Shown here: positions 4,611-42,930 of the stretch, piece after piece
Layout of the letters: every line of letters starts with the position of its first letter
Position numbering within the stretch: position 1 is the stretch's first letter
NCBI GenBank assembly: GCA_945787805.1
Contig: CALZID010000002.1
Coordinates: 62,001 to 126,000, forward strand
Direction: 5' to 3'
DNA: 64,000 nt
DNA from: an uncultured Clostridia bacterium
Lineage (GTDB): Bacteria > Bacillota > Clostridia > Oscillospirales > Acutalibacteraceae
The notes under the pieces: model-generated
What the model was told of the DNA's origin: nothing
Databases searched by the model: none
What the model saw: only the letters and a program-made list of their open reading frames with translations
Translations under genes and position numbers: made by a program

Positions 4611-4894
4611 AAATTGATATTCATCCTAAAAACCGACGAGAAAGATTAGTAGTTGATTTTTAGTTGTTCCCAGAGAGCCGATGGCGGTGTGAATTCGGCA
4701 GCAATTATTTCAATGAATGGACTTTTGAGGGCAAACCGAAAGCAGCTGCGAGTAGGCGCGACGGAGGGCAACCGTTACAGTGCTATGTGTATGTCAGTAC
4801 ACAGTGAGTGCGCATTTTTAATGCGAATTTGGGTGGTACCGCAGGTTATGTTTATTCCCTGTCCCAGTATTTTTTACTGAGACAGGTTTTTTTA
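4611..4894 (+). promoter_or_regulatory. T-box riboswitch, Trp specifier
   Basis: Leader with classic T-box parts: AGTAG bulge motif (~4649), AGAGAGCCG, specifier-loop segment GAATGGACTTTTGAG with codon TGG at 4718-4720, and the T-box GGGTGGTACCGCAGG at 4831-4845 that pairs with uncharged tRNA acceptor ends. It is followed by a terminator hairpin CCTGTC...GACAGG (4858-4886) with a T run. UGG means tRNA-Trp is sensed, so transcription of the transporter rises when tryptophan is scarce. This agrees with the downstream trpXYZ-type genes. The specifier is assigned by position relative to conserved flanks, not by folding software. Confidence 0.95.
4858..4894 (+). terminator. T-box terminator hairpin
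   Basis: CCTGTCCCAGT and ACTGAGACAGG arms followed by eight T residues. The 5' arm would be recruited into the competing antiterminator with the T-box sequence. Confidence 0.92.
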
Positions 4895-4916: not shown

Positions 4917-4955
4917 ATGAAAATTTTATCAAAACGATGGCGACTTTCAGACTAA
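4917..4955 (+). CDS. 12-codon Trp-containing leader ORF upstream of trpX
   Basis: ATG 4917 follows ACGGAGGCG with 8-9 bases spacing, a better ribosome site than many genes here have. It encodes MKILSKRWRLSD and stops at 4953. It lies between the T-box terminator and trpX and holds one Trp codon (TGG 4938-4940). It could be a translated leader peptide adding a second Trp-sensing layer, a remnant of a lost gene start, or a chance frame with a Shine-Dalgarno-like sequence. No homologue is recognised. Confidence 0.4.
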   Translation: MKILSKRWRLSD

Positions 4956-5010
4956 TATTCAACAAACAAATTTTACAATTCTAATTTTTAAATCTGAAAG
5001 GAAAATCATT

Positions 5011-6099
5011 ATGAAAAAATATATTGCAATCTTACTCGTATTAGTATTAACAATCGTAGGCTTTACAGCATGCGGAAAAAACGGCGGAAACGCTGATGAA
5101 AACAAAACAGTTATCGGACTTCTTTATGACGCAGGTCAAGACTCATCAACAACGGCAATCGCAGAAGCAAAAGCATATCTTGACGAAAAAGGTGTTGCTT
5201 ATAAAGAATACACCGGCACAACAGTTGACGAAGTCAGCCTTGCGGTTGACGCCGCAATCGCTGATAAGGTTTCGGCAATCTTCACTCCTTCCGATAATAC
5301 AATTATGACCGCCGAGCTTTCAATTTATGAAAAGCTTGCAGCCGCAGGAATTCCGCATTTTACAGGCGCAGACTCATTTGCTCTTAACGGCGCATATCTC
5401 GGCTATGGCGTTGACTATGCAAATCTCGGTAAAGAAACCGCAAATATGATTGCAGAAGTATTGATTGACGGCAAAGACCCCGCAACACTTGCAGTTAAAA
5501 CATTTGATAACGGCACAGCAACAATCAACACAGAAATCTGCGAAAAGCTCGGTTATGATTTCACAGAAATTTCTAAAAAATATGAGCCCTTATGCCAGGC
5601 AATCAAAGAAATCAAAACAGGTAATGCTTTTGCCGAAGAAATCACCGCCGCAGGTGCTCTTGCATCAGGCAAAATCGGTGCTGAAAATGCAGAAAAGACA
5701 TTTACAGTGGGCATTTGCAACTTTGTTGACGACGCTTCTCTCAACCAGATTGTAAGCAATATCAAAATGCAGCTTGACACAATCGGCAAAGAAAAGAATG
5801 TGGCATTCGTTGTAAAATATGACAACTGTAACGCAGACTCAAATGTAATGAATCAGATTATTTCAGGCTTTGAAGCAGATAAGGTTGACCTTATGGTCGG
5901 TGTTGCAACTCCCGTTGCCGTAGCAATGCAGTCTGCAACCGAAGACAACCGGATTCCTGTAATTTTCGCAGCAGTATCTGACCCGGTCGGCACAGAAATT
6001 GTAAGCTCGCTTGAAAACCCCGGCAAAAATATCACAGGTACATCCGACTATCTTGATACAAAATCAATCTTCAATCTTATTCTTGAAACAGTAGGCTAA
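5011..6099 (+). CDS. trpX: TrpX-type tryptophan-binding lipoprotein with permuted lobes
   Basis: 362-residue solute-binding lipoprotein (signal 1-20, lipobox FTAC, Cys21) of the ABC_sub_bind family (PF04392). The usual order is N-lobe (…DPVGxxLV…NVTGTSD) then C-lobe (VxxLYxxxExNS…PxDNT…YGVDYxxLG…). Here the C-lobe-type sequence comes first (residues ~33-184: IGLLYDAGQDSS, FTPSDNTI, GYGVDYANLGKETA). A ~45-residue linker follows (185-229), then the N-lobe-type sequence (230-362: VGVATPVAVAMQSATEDNRIP, AAVSDPVGTEIV, NITGTSDY), ending just where the normal hinge would cross over. It is the first gene of the T-box(Trp)-controlled transporter operon, so tryptophan is the expected ligand. The permutation is my reading of motif order; see findings. 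Confidence 0.88.
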   Translation: MKKYIAILLVLVLTIVGFTACGKNGGNADENKTVIGLLYDAGQDSSTTAIAEAKAYLDEKGVAYKEYTGTTVDEVSLAVDAAIADKVSAIFTPSDNTIMTAELSIYEKLAAAGIPHFTGADSFALNGAYLGYGVDYANLGKETANMIAEVLIDGKDPATLAVKTFDNGTATINTEICEKLGYDFTEISKKYEPLCQAIKEIKTGNAFAEEITAAGALASGKIGAENAEKTFTVGICNFVDDASLNQIVSNIKMQLDTIGKEKNVAFVVKYDNCNADSNVMNQIISGFEADKVDLMVGVATPVAVAMQSATEDNRIPVIFAAVSDPVGTEIVSSLENPGKNITGTSDYLDTKSIFNLILETVG

Positions 6100-6123
6100 T
6101 CAAATTTTTAAGGACGGAACATT

Positions 6124-7056
6124 ATGGATTTTAACTCAATTTTGAGCATAGGCGAAAACGCCCTGCAATTAGGACTTATCAGTTCATTGACAGTACTTGC
6201 ACTGTTTTTAAGTTACACAATGCTCAATGTGTGCGACCTTTCAACCGACGGGTGTTTTACCCTTGGCGCTACGGTAGGCGCAGTTGTTGCAATCGCCGGA
6301 CATCCCGGGTTGTCAATAGTCGCGGCTATGGCGGCAGGTATCGTTTCCGGTTTTGTTGTAGCCTTTTTACAAACGAAAATGGGTATTAACAGTCTGCTTG
6401 CAGGTATTATAGTCAATACGGGGCTCTATTCCGTAAATATTGCAGTTATGGGTAACTCGTCGCTTCTGAATATGAACAAAACCGAAACGGTGTTCACTCT
6501 GCTTAAAGAAAAACTTAAAGGCACGGTGCTTGAAAAAGAATATACCCTTATTATCGCCCTTGTTGCGGTTGCGCTTGTGGTTGTATTCCTTTCTTTCTTC
6601 CTTAAAACAAAATTGGGACTTGCAATTCGTGCAACAGGTAATAATCCCGATATGGTCCGTTCATCTTCCATAAATCCCGTTTTTACAACAATTGTAGGGC
6701 TTTGTGTGGCAAACTCATTTACTGCCCTGTCAGGTTGTTTGCTGGCACAATCTCAAAAATCCGTAAACATAGACATCGGTACCGGCATGGTTACTGTGGC
6801 ACTTGCCTCGCTTCTCATCGGCGGCGTGTTTATGGGCAAGGGCAAAATTCCCGTGAGAGCCGTGGGCGTTGTGCTTGGCTCAATCGTATTCAGAATTGTC
6901 TATGCAATCGCATTGAGATTTGATATGCCGGCATATATGCTGAAGCTCATTTCATCGGTTATTGTTATTATTGCAATTTCTGCTCCTTATATTAAATCAC
7001 AGTTACCCGCAATCAAGAGAAGAATATCTCTTGCTCGGGGAAAGGGGGCGGCTTAA
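6124..7056 (+). CDS. trpY: Tryptophan ABC transporter permease
   Basis: 310-residue integral membrane protein of the branched-chain-amino-acid/ribose permease type (BPD_transp_2), about eight to nine hydrophobic segments, with the family's SLTVLALFLSYTMLNVCDLS N-terminal helix and a cytosolic coupling region GLAIRATGNNPDMVRSSSIN at ~182-201. Forms the membrane channel with TrpX and the TrpZ ATPase. It starts 24 bases after trpX and its TAA is directly followed by the trpZ ATG, so coupled translation is likely. Substrate assignment rests on the T-box specifier and on the known trpXYZ gene order in Firmicutes, not on the permease sequence itself. Confidence 0.93.
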   Translation: MDFNSILSIGENALQLGLISSLTVLALFLSYTMLNVCDLSTDGCFTLGATVGAVVAIAGHPGLSIVAAMAAGIVSGFVVAFLQTKMGINSLLAGIIVNTGLYSVNIAVMGNSSLLNMNKTETVFTLLKEKLKGTVLEKEYTLIIALVAVALVVVFLSFFLKTKLGLAIRATGNNPDMVRSSSINPVFTTIVGLCVANSFTALSGCLLAQSQKSVNIDIGTGMVTVALASLLIGGVFMGKGKIPVRAVGVVLGSIVFRIVYAIALRFDMPAYMLKLISSVIVIIAISAPYIKSQLPAIKRRISLARGKGAA

Positions 7057-7845
7057 ATGTTAAAAATGACAGGTGTTTCCAAAACCTTTAATCCGGGTAC
7101 GGTCAACGCCAAAACCGCTCTCAGTGATTTGTCGCTTCATGTTAATAAAGGCGATTTTATCACAATAATCGGCGCAAACGGTGCGGGAAAATCCACACTT
7201 TTTAATGCGATAGCCGGCTCGTTTATGACGGACAGCGGAAATATTATTCTTGACGGAAAAGATATAACGCTTATGCCCGAACACAAAAGAGCAAAATCTA
7301 TCGGCAGACTTTTTCAGGACCCAATGCGAGGTTCTGCCCCCGGAATGAGTATTGAAGAAAATATGGCTCTTGCGGCAGGTCACGGCGGTTGGCTGAGCTC
7401 CGTTTCACGAAAAGACAAAGAACTGTTCCGTGAAAGACTTGCGCTTCTCGAAATGGGACTTGAAGACAGAATGAAACAGCCCGTGGGACTTCTCTCAGGC
7501 GGTCAAAGACAGGCTCTGACTCTTATGATGGCAACATTTCATCCGCCGAAACTTCTTTTGCTTGACGAACATACGGCGGCGTTGGACCCGGGCACTGCCG
7601 AAAAAGTGCTTGAACTGACAAAAACCATCGTAGCAGAAAACAAACTTACTTGTCTTATGATTACTCATAATATGCAATCGGCTCTTGACCTTGGCAACAG
7701 AACATTTATGATGAATAACGGCAGTATCGTCTATGATGTTCAGGGTGAAGAAAGAAATAACCTGACGGTTTCCGACCTGTTGCAAAAATTCAAAGAGTCG
7801 GTGGGCAAAGAGCTTGATAACGACAGAATGTTACTGTCGGAATAA
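7057..7845 (+). CDS. trpZ: Tryptophan ABC transporter ATP-binding protein
   Basis: 262-residue ABC ATPase. Walker A GANGAGKST at residues 39-47, Q-loop RLFQDPMRGSAPGMSIEENM, signature LSGGQRQA near 147, Walker B LLLLDEHTAALDPG, and the H-loop ITHNMQSAL. All catalytic elements are intact. The EHTAALD form of Walker B/D-loop is typical of this TrpZ/ABC-transporter subfamily. The ATG immediately follows the permease stop codon. It powers import by the TrpXY complex at the cytoplasmic membrane. A hairpin 40 bases downstream ends the operon. Confidence 0.95.
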   Translation: MLKMTGVSKTFNPGTVNAKTALSDLSLHVNKGDFITIIGANGAGKSTLFNAIAGSFMTDSGNIILDGKDITLMPEHKRAKSIGRLFQDPMRGSAPGMSIEENMALAAGHGGWLSSVSRKDKELFRERLALLEMGLEDRMKQPVGLLSGGQRQALTLMMATFHPPKLLLLDEHTAALDPGTAEKVLELTKTIVAENKLTCLMITHNMQSALDLGNRTFMMNNGSIVYDVQGEERNNLTVSDLLQKFKESVGKELDNDRMLLSE

Positions 7846-10893: not shown

Positions 10894-10924
10894 AAATAAA
10901 GAGGCTGAAACAGCCTCTTTATTT
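10894..10924. terminator. Bidirectional terminator overlapping a stop codon
   Basis: AAATAAAGAGGCTG and CAGCCTCTTTATTT form a perfect 14-bp stem with an AAA loop. The 3' side includes the stop codon (10919-10921) of the leftward membrane-protein gene. Confidence 0.88.
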
Positions 10925-10993
10925 GCTTGCATCATAAGTGCCTGCCAGCATATTCTCTTTTTTAATATCTTCAAGATTTTGTATTGCTCTTTC
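10917..10993. repeat. 77-base direct repeat, copy 1
   Basis: Identical to 11513-11589. Covers the stop codon and final codons of two tandem paralogues; the rest of the two genes is clearly more divergent. Confidence 0.9.
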
Positions 10994-11500
10994 ACAGCTC
11001 TTTTTCAAGTCTTTTATTTGTTTTATTTTGCCAACGCCGACAAAGAAAAATTGCAGTCCGCCAATCATCAAAGACACACTGCCGAAAAGCAATGACAAAC
11101 CGAAAATCCGCCATATATAAACAAGTTCTGTGTCGGTATAGCCCGAGCTTGAACCCATATTCCAGATTTCTGCTAAAAATGTATTGTAATATGTTATAGC
11201 CTGACTGTAAAAACTAATTGCAATGCCTATGAAAATTGCAAGTATTATTATAGAAATTATAAGTAGCTTTTTTGCTTGGGTTATCTTTTTTTCATAGCTT
11301 TTATTTGTATCGTCAACACGCTTTAAATGCTGTGTGCGAGTTAAAAGCACATACTTGTTAAGAGAATCCATATCGTCATCAAAAATATGATTCAGATAAT
11401 CTCTGTTCATCATTTCGTCATTGGCTGTCTTGTTTTGGTCAAACATTTCATCTAATTTTTCTGAAAGGTCTTTTTGATTGTTCATGTTTTTGTCATTCAC
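10919..11500 (-). CDS. Two-TM membrane protein, tandem paralogue 1
   Basis: 193 residues, GTG start 11500 after AAAGGCGG. Layout: acidic, Asn-rich N-terminal cytosolic part with NRDYLNHIF and LLTRTQHLKRVDD motifs, a TM segment (~80-100), a short outside loop, a second TM (~133-155), and a C-terminal basic helix ending LEDIKKENMLAGTYDASK. I recognise no family. It is the last of three adjacent homologues (with 11515-12096 and 12111-12599). Its last ~23 codons are identical at DNA level to those of the middle gene, suggesting recent duplication or conversion. Probably co-transcribed from glpK through malic enzyme. Confidence 0.85.
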   Translation of the reverse strand: MNDKNMNNQKDLSEKLDEMFDQNKTANDEMMNRDYLNHIFDDDMDSLNKYVLLTRTQHLKRVDDTNKSYEKKITQAKKLLIISIIILAIFIGIAISFYSQAITYYNTFLAEIWNMGSSSGYTDTELVYIWRIFGLSLLFGSVSLMIGGLQFFFVGVGKIKQIKDLKKSCERAIQNLEDIKKENMLAGTYDASK

Positions 11501-11512
11501 AAAATCAACCGC

Positions 11513-11589
11513 CTTTATTTGCTTGCATCATAAGTGCCTGCCAGCATATTCTCTTTTTTAATATCTTCAAGATTTTGTATTGCTCTTTC
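11513..11589. repeat. 77-base direct repeat, copy 2
   Basis: Identical to 10917-10993, at the 3' end of the middle paralogue. Confidence 0.9.
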
Positions 11590-12096
11590 TCTGCGTTTTT
11601 CTAATTCTTTTATCCGTTTTTTATTGCCGATACCCATAAAATAATACTGCAAAAGACCGATAAGCAAAGTCAGTCCGCCAAACAAGCCTGAAAATCCGTA
11701 TATGAACCACGAACTGTTTATTTCGCTTCTTGCGGTTACATCACCGTTGTTGAATTCTTCAGCGGCATTTGCATATAAATCATAATAATCCCACCCTTGA
11801 GTGTAAAAGCTTATAGTTGCGATTAGACAAAGAATAAGCAACACTATTGAGATTATCCGTTTTCTTTTGGCGGATTTTATTTTTTTACCAAAGTTTTCAT
11901 TGACTTCATCAATCCGTTTTAAATGCTGTGTGCGGGTTAAAAGCGTGAGCTTATTGAGAGATTTCATTTCATCATTATAAATCTGATGAAGATAATCTCT
12001 GTTCATCTCTTCAACATTTTCGGTTGTGTTATATTGAAACATCTCGTCAAACTTTTCTGAATAGTTTTCCTGATTGTTTGTGTTTTTATCGCTCAC
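11515..12096 (-). CDS. Two-TM membrane protein, tandem paralogue 2
   Basis: 193 residues with a GTG start at 12096 after AAAGGGCGGTG. Same plan as its downstream neighbour: NRDYLHQIYNDEMKSLNKLTLLTRTQHLKRIDE region, TM at ~83-102, outer loop longer in charged residues (NNGDVTARSEIN), second TM ~133-155, and the identical tail ending ENMLAGTYDASK. Fourteen bases separate it from the downstream copy and 14 from the upstream one. No known family recognised. The conserved ends and diverged loop suggest the cytosolic ends interact with a common partner while the outer loop varies. Confidence 0.85.
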   Translation of the reverse strand: MSDKNTNNQENYSEKFDEMFQYNTTENVEEMNRDYLHQIYNDEMKSLNKLTLLTRTQHLKRIDEVNENFGKKIKSAKRKRIISIVLLILCLIATISFYTQGWDYYDLYANAAEEFNNGDVTARSEINSSWFIYGFSGLFGGLTLLIGLLQYYFMGIGNKKRIKELEKRRERAIQNLEDIKKENMLAGTYDASK

Positions 12097-16763: not shown

Positions 16764-16905
16764 TGCCTTAATTCAGTCGTGTGCCGTGTGGGTCCTGTGC
16801 GGCGGGGCGCTGTGAACCATGTCAGGCGGGGAACCGAGCAGCATTAAGCGGTTTGCACCGGGCGCCACAGTCTGCCTGCACGACACATGACTGAGTTAAG
16901 GCAAT
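16764..16905 (+). ncRNA. ffs: Signal recognition particle RNA (small bacterial 4.5S type)
   Basis: Long hairpin RNA. TTGCCTTAATTCAGTC at the 5' side pairs with GACTGAGTTAAGGCAA at the 3' side, extended by GTGT/ACAC. The apical Ffh-binding region reads GTCAGGCGGGGAACCGAGCAGC, with the conserved GTCAGG, GGAA loop-type motif and AGCAGC. It binds Ffh for co-translational membrane targeting. The dnaX gene starts 33 bases later; ffs-dnaX-ybaB-recR is a common Firmicute order, which supports the call. Exact ends not determined. Confidence 0.88.
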
Positions 16906-20634: not shown

Positions 20635-20987
20635 GGGGATGAAAGGATTTCGACGGGGATTTTGAACTGCGATAAGCGAGTAGTGGAGTCTGCCCACTAT
20701 AAAACGGACGGTTTATAAATAATAAACGACAAAAACGAAAAAGTACTTCTTGCTGCTTAATCAGCGGTGAGCGCTCCCCCGAGAGAACTGCGGCTCGGTC
20801 AGGAGTGTCATTCAGCAGTAAATGTGAACGGATAACCGCCTTGTAGTCCGTCACACATCACAGGGCTACTGAAAGGAATGCCTGTTTGTCGGCTGTCCCG
20901 TAGGGAATTACAATAGATAAACTACACTCGTAGAAAGTTTCAGGAATAGATTTTCGGACGCGAGTTCGACTCTCGCCATCTCCACCA
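20635..20987 (+). ncRNA. ssrA: Transfer-messenger RNA
   Basis: Starts GGGGATGAAAGGATTTCGACGGGG and ends GTTCGACTCTCGCCATCTCCACCA, with the 7-bp acceptor stem GGGGATG/CATCTCC and genome-encoded CCA. The tag-coding region (~20722-20760) ends AAC GAC AAA AAC GAA AAA GTA CTT CTT GCT GCT TAA, i.e. NDKNEKVLLAA, where most bacteria have a ...ALAA end. The exact resume codon is uncertain (ATA or AAC, no usual GCA). About 353 nt, one-piece form. A Rho-independent hairpin follows. Confidence 0.96.
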
Positions 20988-42808: not shown

Positions 42809-42815
42809 TGATTGT

Positions 42816-42930
<115 letters not shown>

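Follow-up and report, generated by a model that had tools for sequence, protein, structure and literature searches.

Reversed segment order in a TrpX-type lipoprotein of gut Clostridia points to natural circular permutation

Does a trpX gene of an uncultured Clostridia bacterium encode the two halves of its product in reverse order, and could such an arrangement have arisen naturally in a gene that still works? The question was raised by an earlier note on a 64,000-nucleotide stretch of contig CALZID010000002.1, referred to here as the window, which read the protein encoded at 5011..6099 as a TrpX substrate-binding protein with permuted lobes. The best overall explanation of our results, in which we place high confidence, is that the gene encodes a tryptophan-binding lipoprotein of a TrpXYZ system that is circularly permuted, functional, and of single origin in gut Clostridia. 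The gene, its parts, and its neighbors are as follows.

4627..4869, plus strand: T-box leader (Rfam RF00230, 105.7 bits, E 2.5e-22) with specifier GAA-UGG-AC, a Trp codon
5011..6099, plus strand: permuted trpX, an intact open reading frame for a 362 aa lipoprotein, which PF04392 and NF041285 each match in two stretches
5011..5109, plus strand: signal peptide, lipobox-like FTAC (Cys21), and short linker, residues 1-33, assigned by eye
5110..5568, plus strand: family C-part, residues 34-186, placed first (3lft 132-285 against query 31-186)
5569..5637, plus strand: native C-terminal tail, residues 187-209, common to canonical close relatives
5638..5694, plus strand: new linker from the old C-terminus to the old N-terminus, residues 210-228, found in 18/18 permuted rows
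5695..6096, plus strand: family N-part, residues 229-362, placed last and ending at the first hinge crossover (3lft 4-121; PF04392 2-124)
6124..7056, plus strand: trpY permease (PF02653)
7057..7845, plus strand: trpZ ATPase (PF00005)

The reading frame and operon position are intact, as the earlier note had stated, with trpY and trpZ downstream. An AAAGGA sequence that by eye resembles a ribosome-binding site lies 5' of the trpX open reading frame. By the general lipobox rule, FTAC at Cys21 is a putative lipobox, and UGG is presumably the T-box specifier, given the conserved GAA that precedes it in this RNA family.

PF04392 was the sole Pfam match of the trpX protein (159.3 bits for the whole protein, threshold 25.9 bits), and it fell in two stretches, the best of which placed residues 233-357 on profile positions 2-124. 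The window protein gave no single collinear match, because profile positions 134-281 preceded 2-124, whereas the protein of canonical locus L110 matched in one stretch (1-283). Scanned apart, residues 31-209 matched profile positions 134-282 (E 3e-22) and residues 229-362 matched positions 2-124 (E 1.6e-25), and these E-values exclude a chance match of the order. When PDB sequences were searched with phmmer, residues 232-352 aligned to the N-part of 3lft (4-121) and residues 31-186 to its C-part (132-285). The alignments to 3lkv and 6hni showed the same reversed order, with residues 229-359 or a portion of them on the N-part and 31-186 on the C-part. Taken together, the alignments to PF04392 and to 3lft, 3lkv, and 6hni indicate that the permuted order is genuinely in the sequence. 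The halves thus do not follow the standard order, and a confusion of two similar lobes was rejected, since the profile and PDB alignments place each half at the family's other end. The NF041285 (TrpX) score was 186.4 bits, below the 390-bit cutoff, and that of canonical L050 was also below it (209.4 bits). These results support the interpretation of the window gene as a natural circular permutation of a PF04392/TrpX-type lipoprotein, opened at the first hinge crossover. Proteins with this fold build a portion of lobe 1 from the C-part; the halves are reordered as the earlier note proposed, but the piece that moved is most of lobe 1 rather than a whole lobe.

The new linker is also shorter than the approximately 45 residues first suggested. 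The C-parts of canonical close relatives match up to query residues 208-210, ending within a few residues of position 209 or so, and a comparison of tails showed that canonical genes stop before the region 210-228. Because these relatives also reach about residue 209, residues 187-209 are the native C-terminal tail, and only about 210-228 is new. The linker has 19 residues in the window and mostly 21 in permuted relatives, and its motif ALASG gives the visual impression of a lost lipobox. The Streptococcus TrpX structure 3lft (S. pneumoniae, solved with L-Trp) belongs to PF04392 like the permutant but has the canonical order; it aligns to query residue 186 only and lacks the permutant's tail of about 23 residues. 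Canonical genes from Clostridia of the same family (L110-L118) share 62-75% identity per half, the X-Y operon order, and the same C-terminal tail, and these loci, together with L050 and L098, differ from the permutant by their canonical order.

The structure of the window protein was predicted with AF2 from an alignment of 18 permuted proteins and 112 canonical half-pieces; the latter came from 56 of 114 eligible canonical loci and were left unpaired, so that the halves were paired in the 18 permuted rows only. The fold was predicted with confidence (pLDDT 88.7, pTM 0.80), and residues 1-30 formed the only run with pLDDT below 50. The native tail was modeled as a helix (184-194) and a strand (197-201) leading to the linker, which was predicted to be ordered with a strand at 220-223 and to be followed by five further strands. 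Foldseek aligned the structures of the protein's own family (3lft, 6hni, 6hnj, and 3lkv) over 166-173 columns, that is, over one half, as expected of a permutant; sugar-binding proteins aligned over roughly 300-386 columns (TMq 0.41-0.56, rmsd 3.7-14). This pattern may reflect the permutant's lobes lying over similar canonical lobes in swapped order, the outcome expected of a hinge cut. Sequence order and predicted model together indicate a circularly permuted Type I fold in which the two-lobed, hinge-closing trap is predicted to be retained. The two original termini may have come near enough for joining because of the C-terminal tail.

The earlier note had regarded the permutation as a rare event and proposed a search of related genomes. 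The window is not a lone case. In its genus, the permuted gene was present in 13 of 39 genomes, no close canonical trpX copy was found in any of the 39, and the remaining genomes held distant matches (at most 41% identity) or none. A PF04392 profile search matched 30 of the 39 genomes. The C-part preceded the N-part in the 13, with genome G018 exceptional and the G031 gene split over two contigs, and the non-permuted PF04392 genes of the genus matched in one collinear stretch, save for short, unconnected fragments in G008 and G023. One genome per species was scanned across 84,980 species, which gave 387 relatives; the best 80 were kept, representing 79 loci. The best 19 loci (L031-L049) were permuted, and of the other 60 among these best 80 of 387, 59 were canonical and one (L101) showed the C-part alone at a contig end. 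Since 12 of the 19 were genus genomes already counted, with identical protein sequences, the distinct permuted genes number 20 (the window, L002-L013, and L038-L044). Eighteen other genomes share the window's order at 70-84% identity, and the G018 protein is 69% identical to that of the window.

In overlapping samples of 398 family, 394 order, and 391 class genomes, permuted genes were confined to the window's genus; two-piece matches outside it all had the N-part first as judged by eye, and single-piece matches do not show order. A PF04392 search of 291 class genomes found matches in 121, and among the class matches listed the C-part lay upstream in the window genome's gene only, with contig-edge or short pieces in G854, G919, and G973. 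L067 and L105 were flagged as permuted by a first filter through long gapped matches and were discarded, as their proteins are canonical. Locus L183 (G727:C6:11216-11851) is PF04392-like and matched query residues 130-358 in one piece; tblastn recovered only its N-part and trpY.

A collapsed tandem trpX pair or chimeric contigs could give a false order. The matches all come from draft assemblies, and those permuted genomes that carry titles are all MAGs or uncultured assemblies. In G031, moreover, the public contig ends inside trpX (at the ends of L012 and L047), splitting the gene over two contigs. A rearrangement there (L012/L047/L030) was rejected because the contig ends in adapter-like sequence. 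Against such an artefact, the same order and linker occur in 19 distinct genomes (the window and 18 others) from several projects with the same downstream genes. Because 20 distinct genomes have a reordered gene, with trpY following it in every case, an assembly accident is very unlikely, and we give this explanation hardly any weight.

We next consider ancestry. Trees were built by a quick method with SH-aLRT support and no bootstrap from 106 C-part, 107 N-part, and 105 trpY rows; duplicate entries for a genome or gene, the split genes L012 and L013, relatives with less than 55% C-part identity, and pieces with less than 80% coverage or with stops were excluded. The 18 permuted rows formed one clade in the C-part and N-part trees (SH-aLRT 97 in each), and the same group appeared in the trpY tree with weaker support (67). 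One change between canonical and permuted order was required in each tree. Shared order is the norm inside the permuted clade but not in the family, since the clade sits among canonical-order genes, which indicates that the permuted order is derived. The trees are most simply read as one event in a functioning operon, which would have occurred in the ancestor of one group of gut Clostridia.

Six pairs within the permuted clade gave dN/dS values of 0.02-0.10, whereas values for the short linker alone scattered more, and its conservation was lower (dN up to 0.49). Of 36 positions that are invariant (at least 95% conserved) in canonical pieces, 34 were kept in at least 17 of the 18 permuted rows, the exceptions being residue 117, where every permuted row has Phe in place of Tyr, and residue 324, where 16 rows have Asp. 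Seven positions were consistently unlike those of close canonical relatives (82, 117, 182, 196, 198, 249, and 354). The gene could conceivably be a decaying, non-functional leftover of a fused tandem duplicate, as fusion followed by loss of ends is its likely origin. The low dN/dS values and the retained residues argue strongly against this, as do the intact operon and the fact that it is the sole PF04392 gene found in the window genome, and we consider decay most improbable. The permuted protein is instead under purifying selection, and sequence evidence indicates that it still works. With order, distribution, single clade, selection, and operon taken together, the evidence supports the earlier proposal that the gene was circularly permuted by a natural event and that its trpXYZ operon is intact.

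The gene's surroundings bear on its probable ligand. trpY adjoins permuted trpX downstream in 20/20 genomes (for L012 via a second contig, L030), and trpZ was seen in 19 of the 20, the G018 contig ending in trpY. The adjoining permease and ATPase genes are those expected for a TrpX role. Ten permuted loci were searched for T-boxes: six had one above the Rfam cutoff, three others had a sub-cutoff match (E no higher than 7e-15), and none was found in L043, whose upstream region holds masked bases. In the five canonical loci searched, a T-box exceeded the cutoff in L062, another fell short of it in L098, and none reached it in L050, L054, or L070. The T-box word GAATGGAC (GAA-UGG-AC) was present in 17 of 20 permuted genomes, spaced as expected from the antiterminator word that follows it; the three without it were L009 and L038, where the upstream stretch is missing, and L043, where it is masked. 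A gene for a TrpB-like PLP enzyme lies directly 5' of permuted trpX in L040 (3442-4965), L042 (3450-4967), and L043 (3415-4959), following the T-box in L040 and L042, although NF009057 confirmed the family for L040 only. In canonical L053, a gene similar by sequence likeness (4920-6335) lies between trpX and trpY.

The Trp-codon T-box and the TrpB-like neighbor point to tryptophan, which on these sequence grounds is the best-supported ligand of permuted TrpX. A functional permutant whose ligand has changed, for example to tyrosine or another aromatic compound, with the permutation tied to the change, appears unlikely. It would accord with residue 117 (window 5359-5361, motif IPHxxGADSF), which is Tyr in 98% of canonical pieces and Phe in 18/18 permuted rows, and with the solved family member 6hni (CD0873), which binds tyrosine. 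The T-box, the TrpB-like gene, and the 34 retained invariant positions weigh on the side of tryptophan. If tryptophan is indeed the ligand, the permuted trap would pass it to TrpYZ, and the T-box, from what is understood of its family, would activate the operon whenever charged tRNA-Trp runs low. A comparable system has been described in Streptococcus suis, where trpX lies in an operon with permease and ATPase genes under a Trp T-box and serves tryptophan uptake, and where growth of a trpX mutant depends on tryptophan concentration (PMC9382623).

How might the order have been reversed? The old C-terminus, after its native tail, would have been joined to the old N-terminus through the linker of about 19 residues, and the chain would have been opened at the first lobe crossover, so that the second part is now what follows the signal peptide and lipid anchor. 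Most probably the gene, or just its N-part, was first duplicated, after which the redundant ends were lost. Among the class matches listed, G1018, G981, G1001, G937, G904, and G1009 contain PF04392 genes paired in tandem on the same strand, with 300-510 bases between them. No duplicated N-C-N intermediate was seen in the PF04392 search of the 39 genus genomes, and duplication is thus a route that we infer. The same product could also result if the gene had split into two halves that later fused again, which is one of the two standard models of permutation (PMC3320104), and G919 has a short N-part frame of 133 aa (G919:C31:223742-223999, profile 1-90) that may be a pseudogene, a contig-edge fragment, or a stand-alone half. 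Neighboring separate halves were not seen in the tabulated loci, however, while tandem full-length pairs were, and we regard fission as a rather unlikely origin. Duplication, the preferred route, has also been proposed for saposin/swaposin and for DNA methyltransferases (PMC3320104); for trpX, the pre- and post-event genes can be aligned residue by residue.

Natural permutation has been described before among Type I binding proteins. TpMglB-2 (Tp0684) of Treponema pallidum is a solved two-lobe lipoprotein designated "Type Ic/Cluster Bc", which still binds ligand and changes conformation and which has relatives in Gram-positive gut bacteria (PMC4990184). The permuted TrpX resembles it as a permuted Type I lipoprotein, and TpMglB-2 likewise has an extra connecting segment, one without counterpart in the E. 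coli protein (PMC4990184). It differs in belonging to a sugar-binding family and in carrying N-lobe strands 1-3 at its C-terminal end, with the cut inside lobe 1 rather than at the hinge crossover (PMC4990184); the window protein has five such strands, and that of G018 three. The moved part of TpMglB-2 aligns poorly to E. coli MglB (13% identity; PMC4990184), which makes its ancestry hard to trace, unlike that of permuted trpX. Its structure, 5JX2, was absent among the best 50 Foldseek matches listed for the window or G018 model. Among the open-licence papers on permutation that were listed, titles and abstract openings yielded none about a permuted TrpX or PF04392 protein. What appears to be new is the family, the cut at the hinge crossover, the residue-level comparison before and after the event, and a second step in G018.

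The G018 gene (L185 1016-2125, minus strand; the same gene as L013 and L046) encodes 369 aa and carries a different, second permutation. Its order is signal peptide, a 44-residue segment IPVIF...LIL, the joint ETVSTDSNA, the C-part, the tail, the same linker, and the N-part as far as ATEEA and the stop; residues 28-240 match PF04392 profile positions 75-283. The T-box word lies upstream and trpY downstream. Its closest sister, L005 (G019), has the window's order and is 95.8% identical in upstream DNA and 90.8% in the gene body, indicating that the G018 change was recent and affected an already permuted gene. Some caution is called for, since the moved 132 bases are nearer to G020 (88.6%) than to G019 (84.1%) and the case comes from one MAG, 85% complete. 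The first junction falls where the leader linker and the cut site briefly resemble each other. The exact bases of the joint and the new end are absent from all other fetched loci, which argues mildly against an assembly join. The AF2 model (pLDDT 88.0, pTM 0.79) has three strands after the linker strand, and Foldseek aligned it to the family over 217-228 columns, as expected. We therefore propose, as a probable though not firm interpretation, serial permutation: the ends would have moved to the first hinge crossover in the ancestor of the 20 genomes and then, recently in G018, to the gap after lobe-1 strand 3, with the first linker kept and the hinge re-sealed by a six-residue joint. This second cut equals the one described for TpMglB-2, in another family (PMC4990184), suggesting preferred points of reopening while transport continues.

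Permuted and canonical trpX share about 70% identity per half and the same operon, and the sisters G019 and G018 differ by a further permutation. Such close pairs make directly testable how a break in the hinge strand and a move of the lipid anchor affect ligand closure and permease docking, as well as the steps by which permutation happens. Permuted TrpX thereby offers a natural experiment on how much rewiring a hinged protein tolerates, and natural permutants of a probable tryptophan-binding protein are ready for sensor building.

Elsewhere in the window, two adjoining 193-aa proteins (10919-11500 and 11515-12096, minus strand) have near-identical ends by eye and are likely a tandem duplicate; no Pfam family above cutoff was found for either. 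Rfam also identified three RNA genes.

16786..16884, plus strand: small SRP RNA
20635..20987, plus strand: tmRNA
42815..42930, minus strand: 5S rRNA gene
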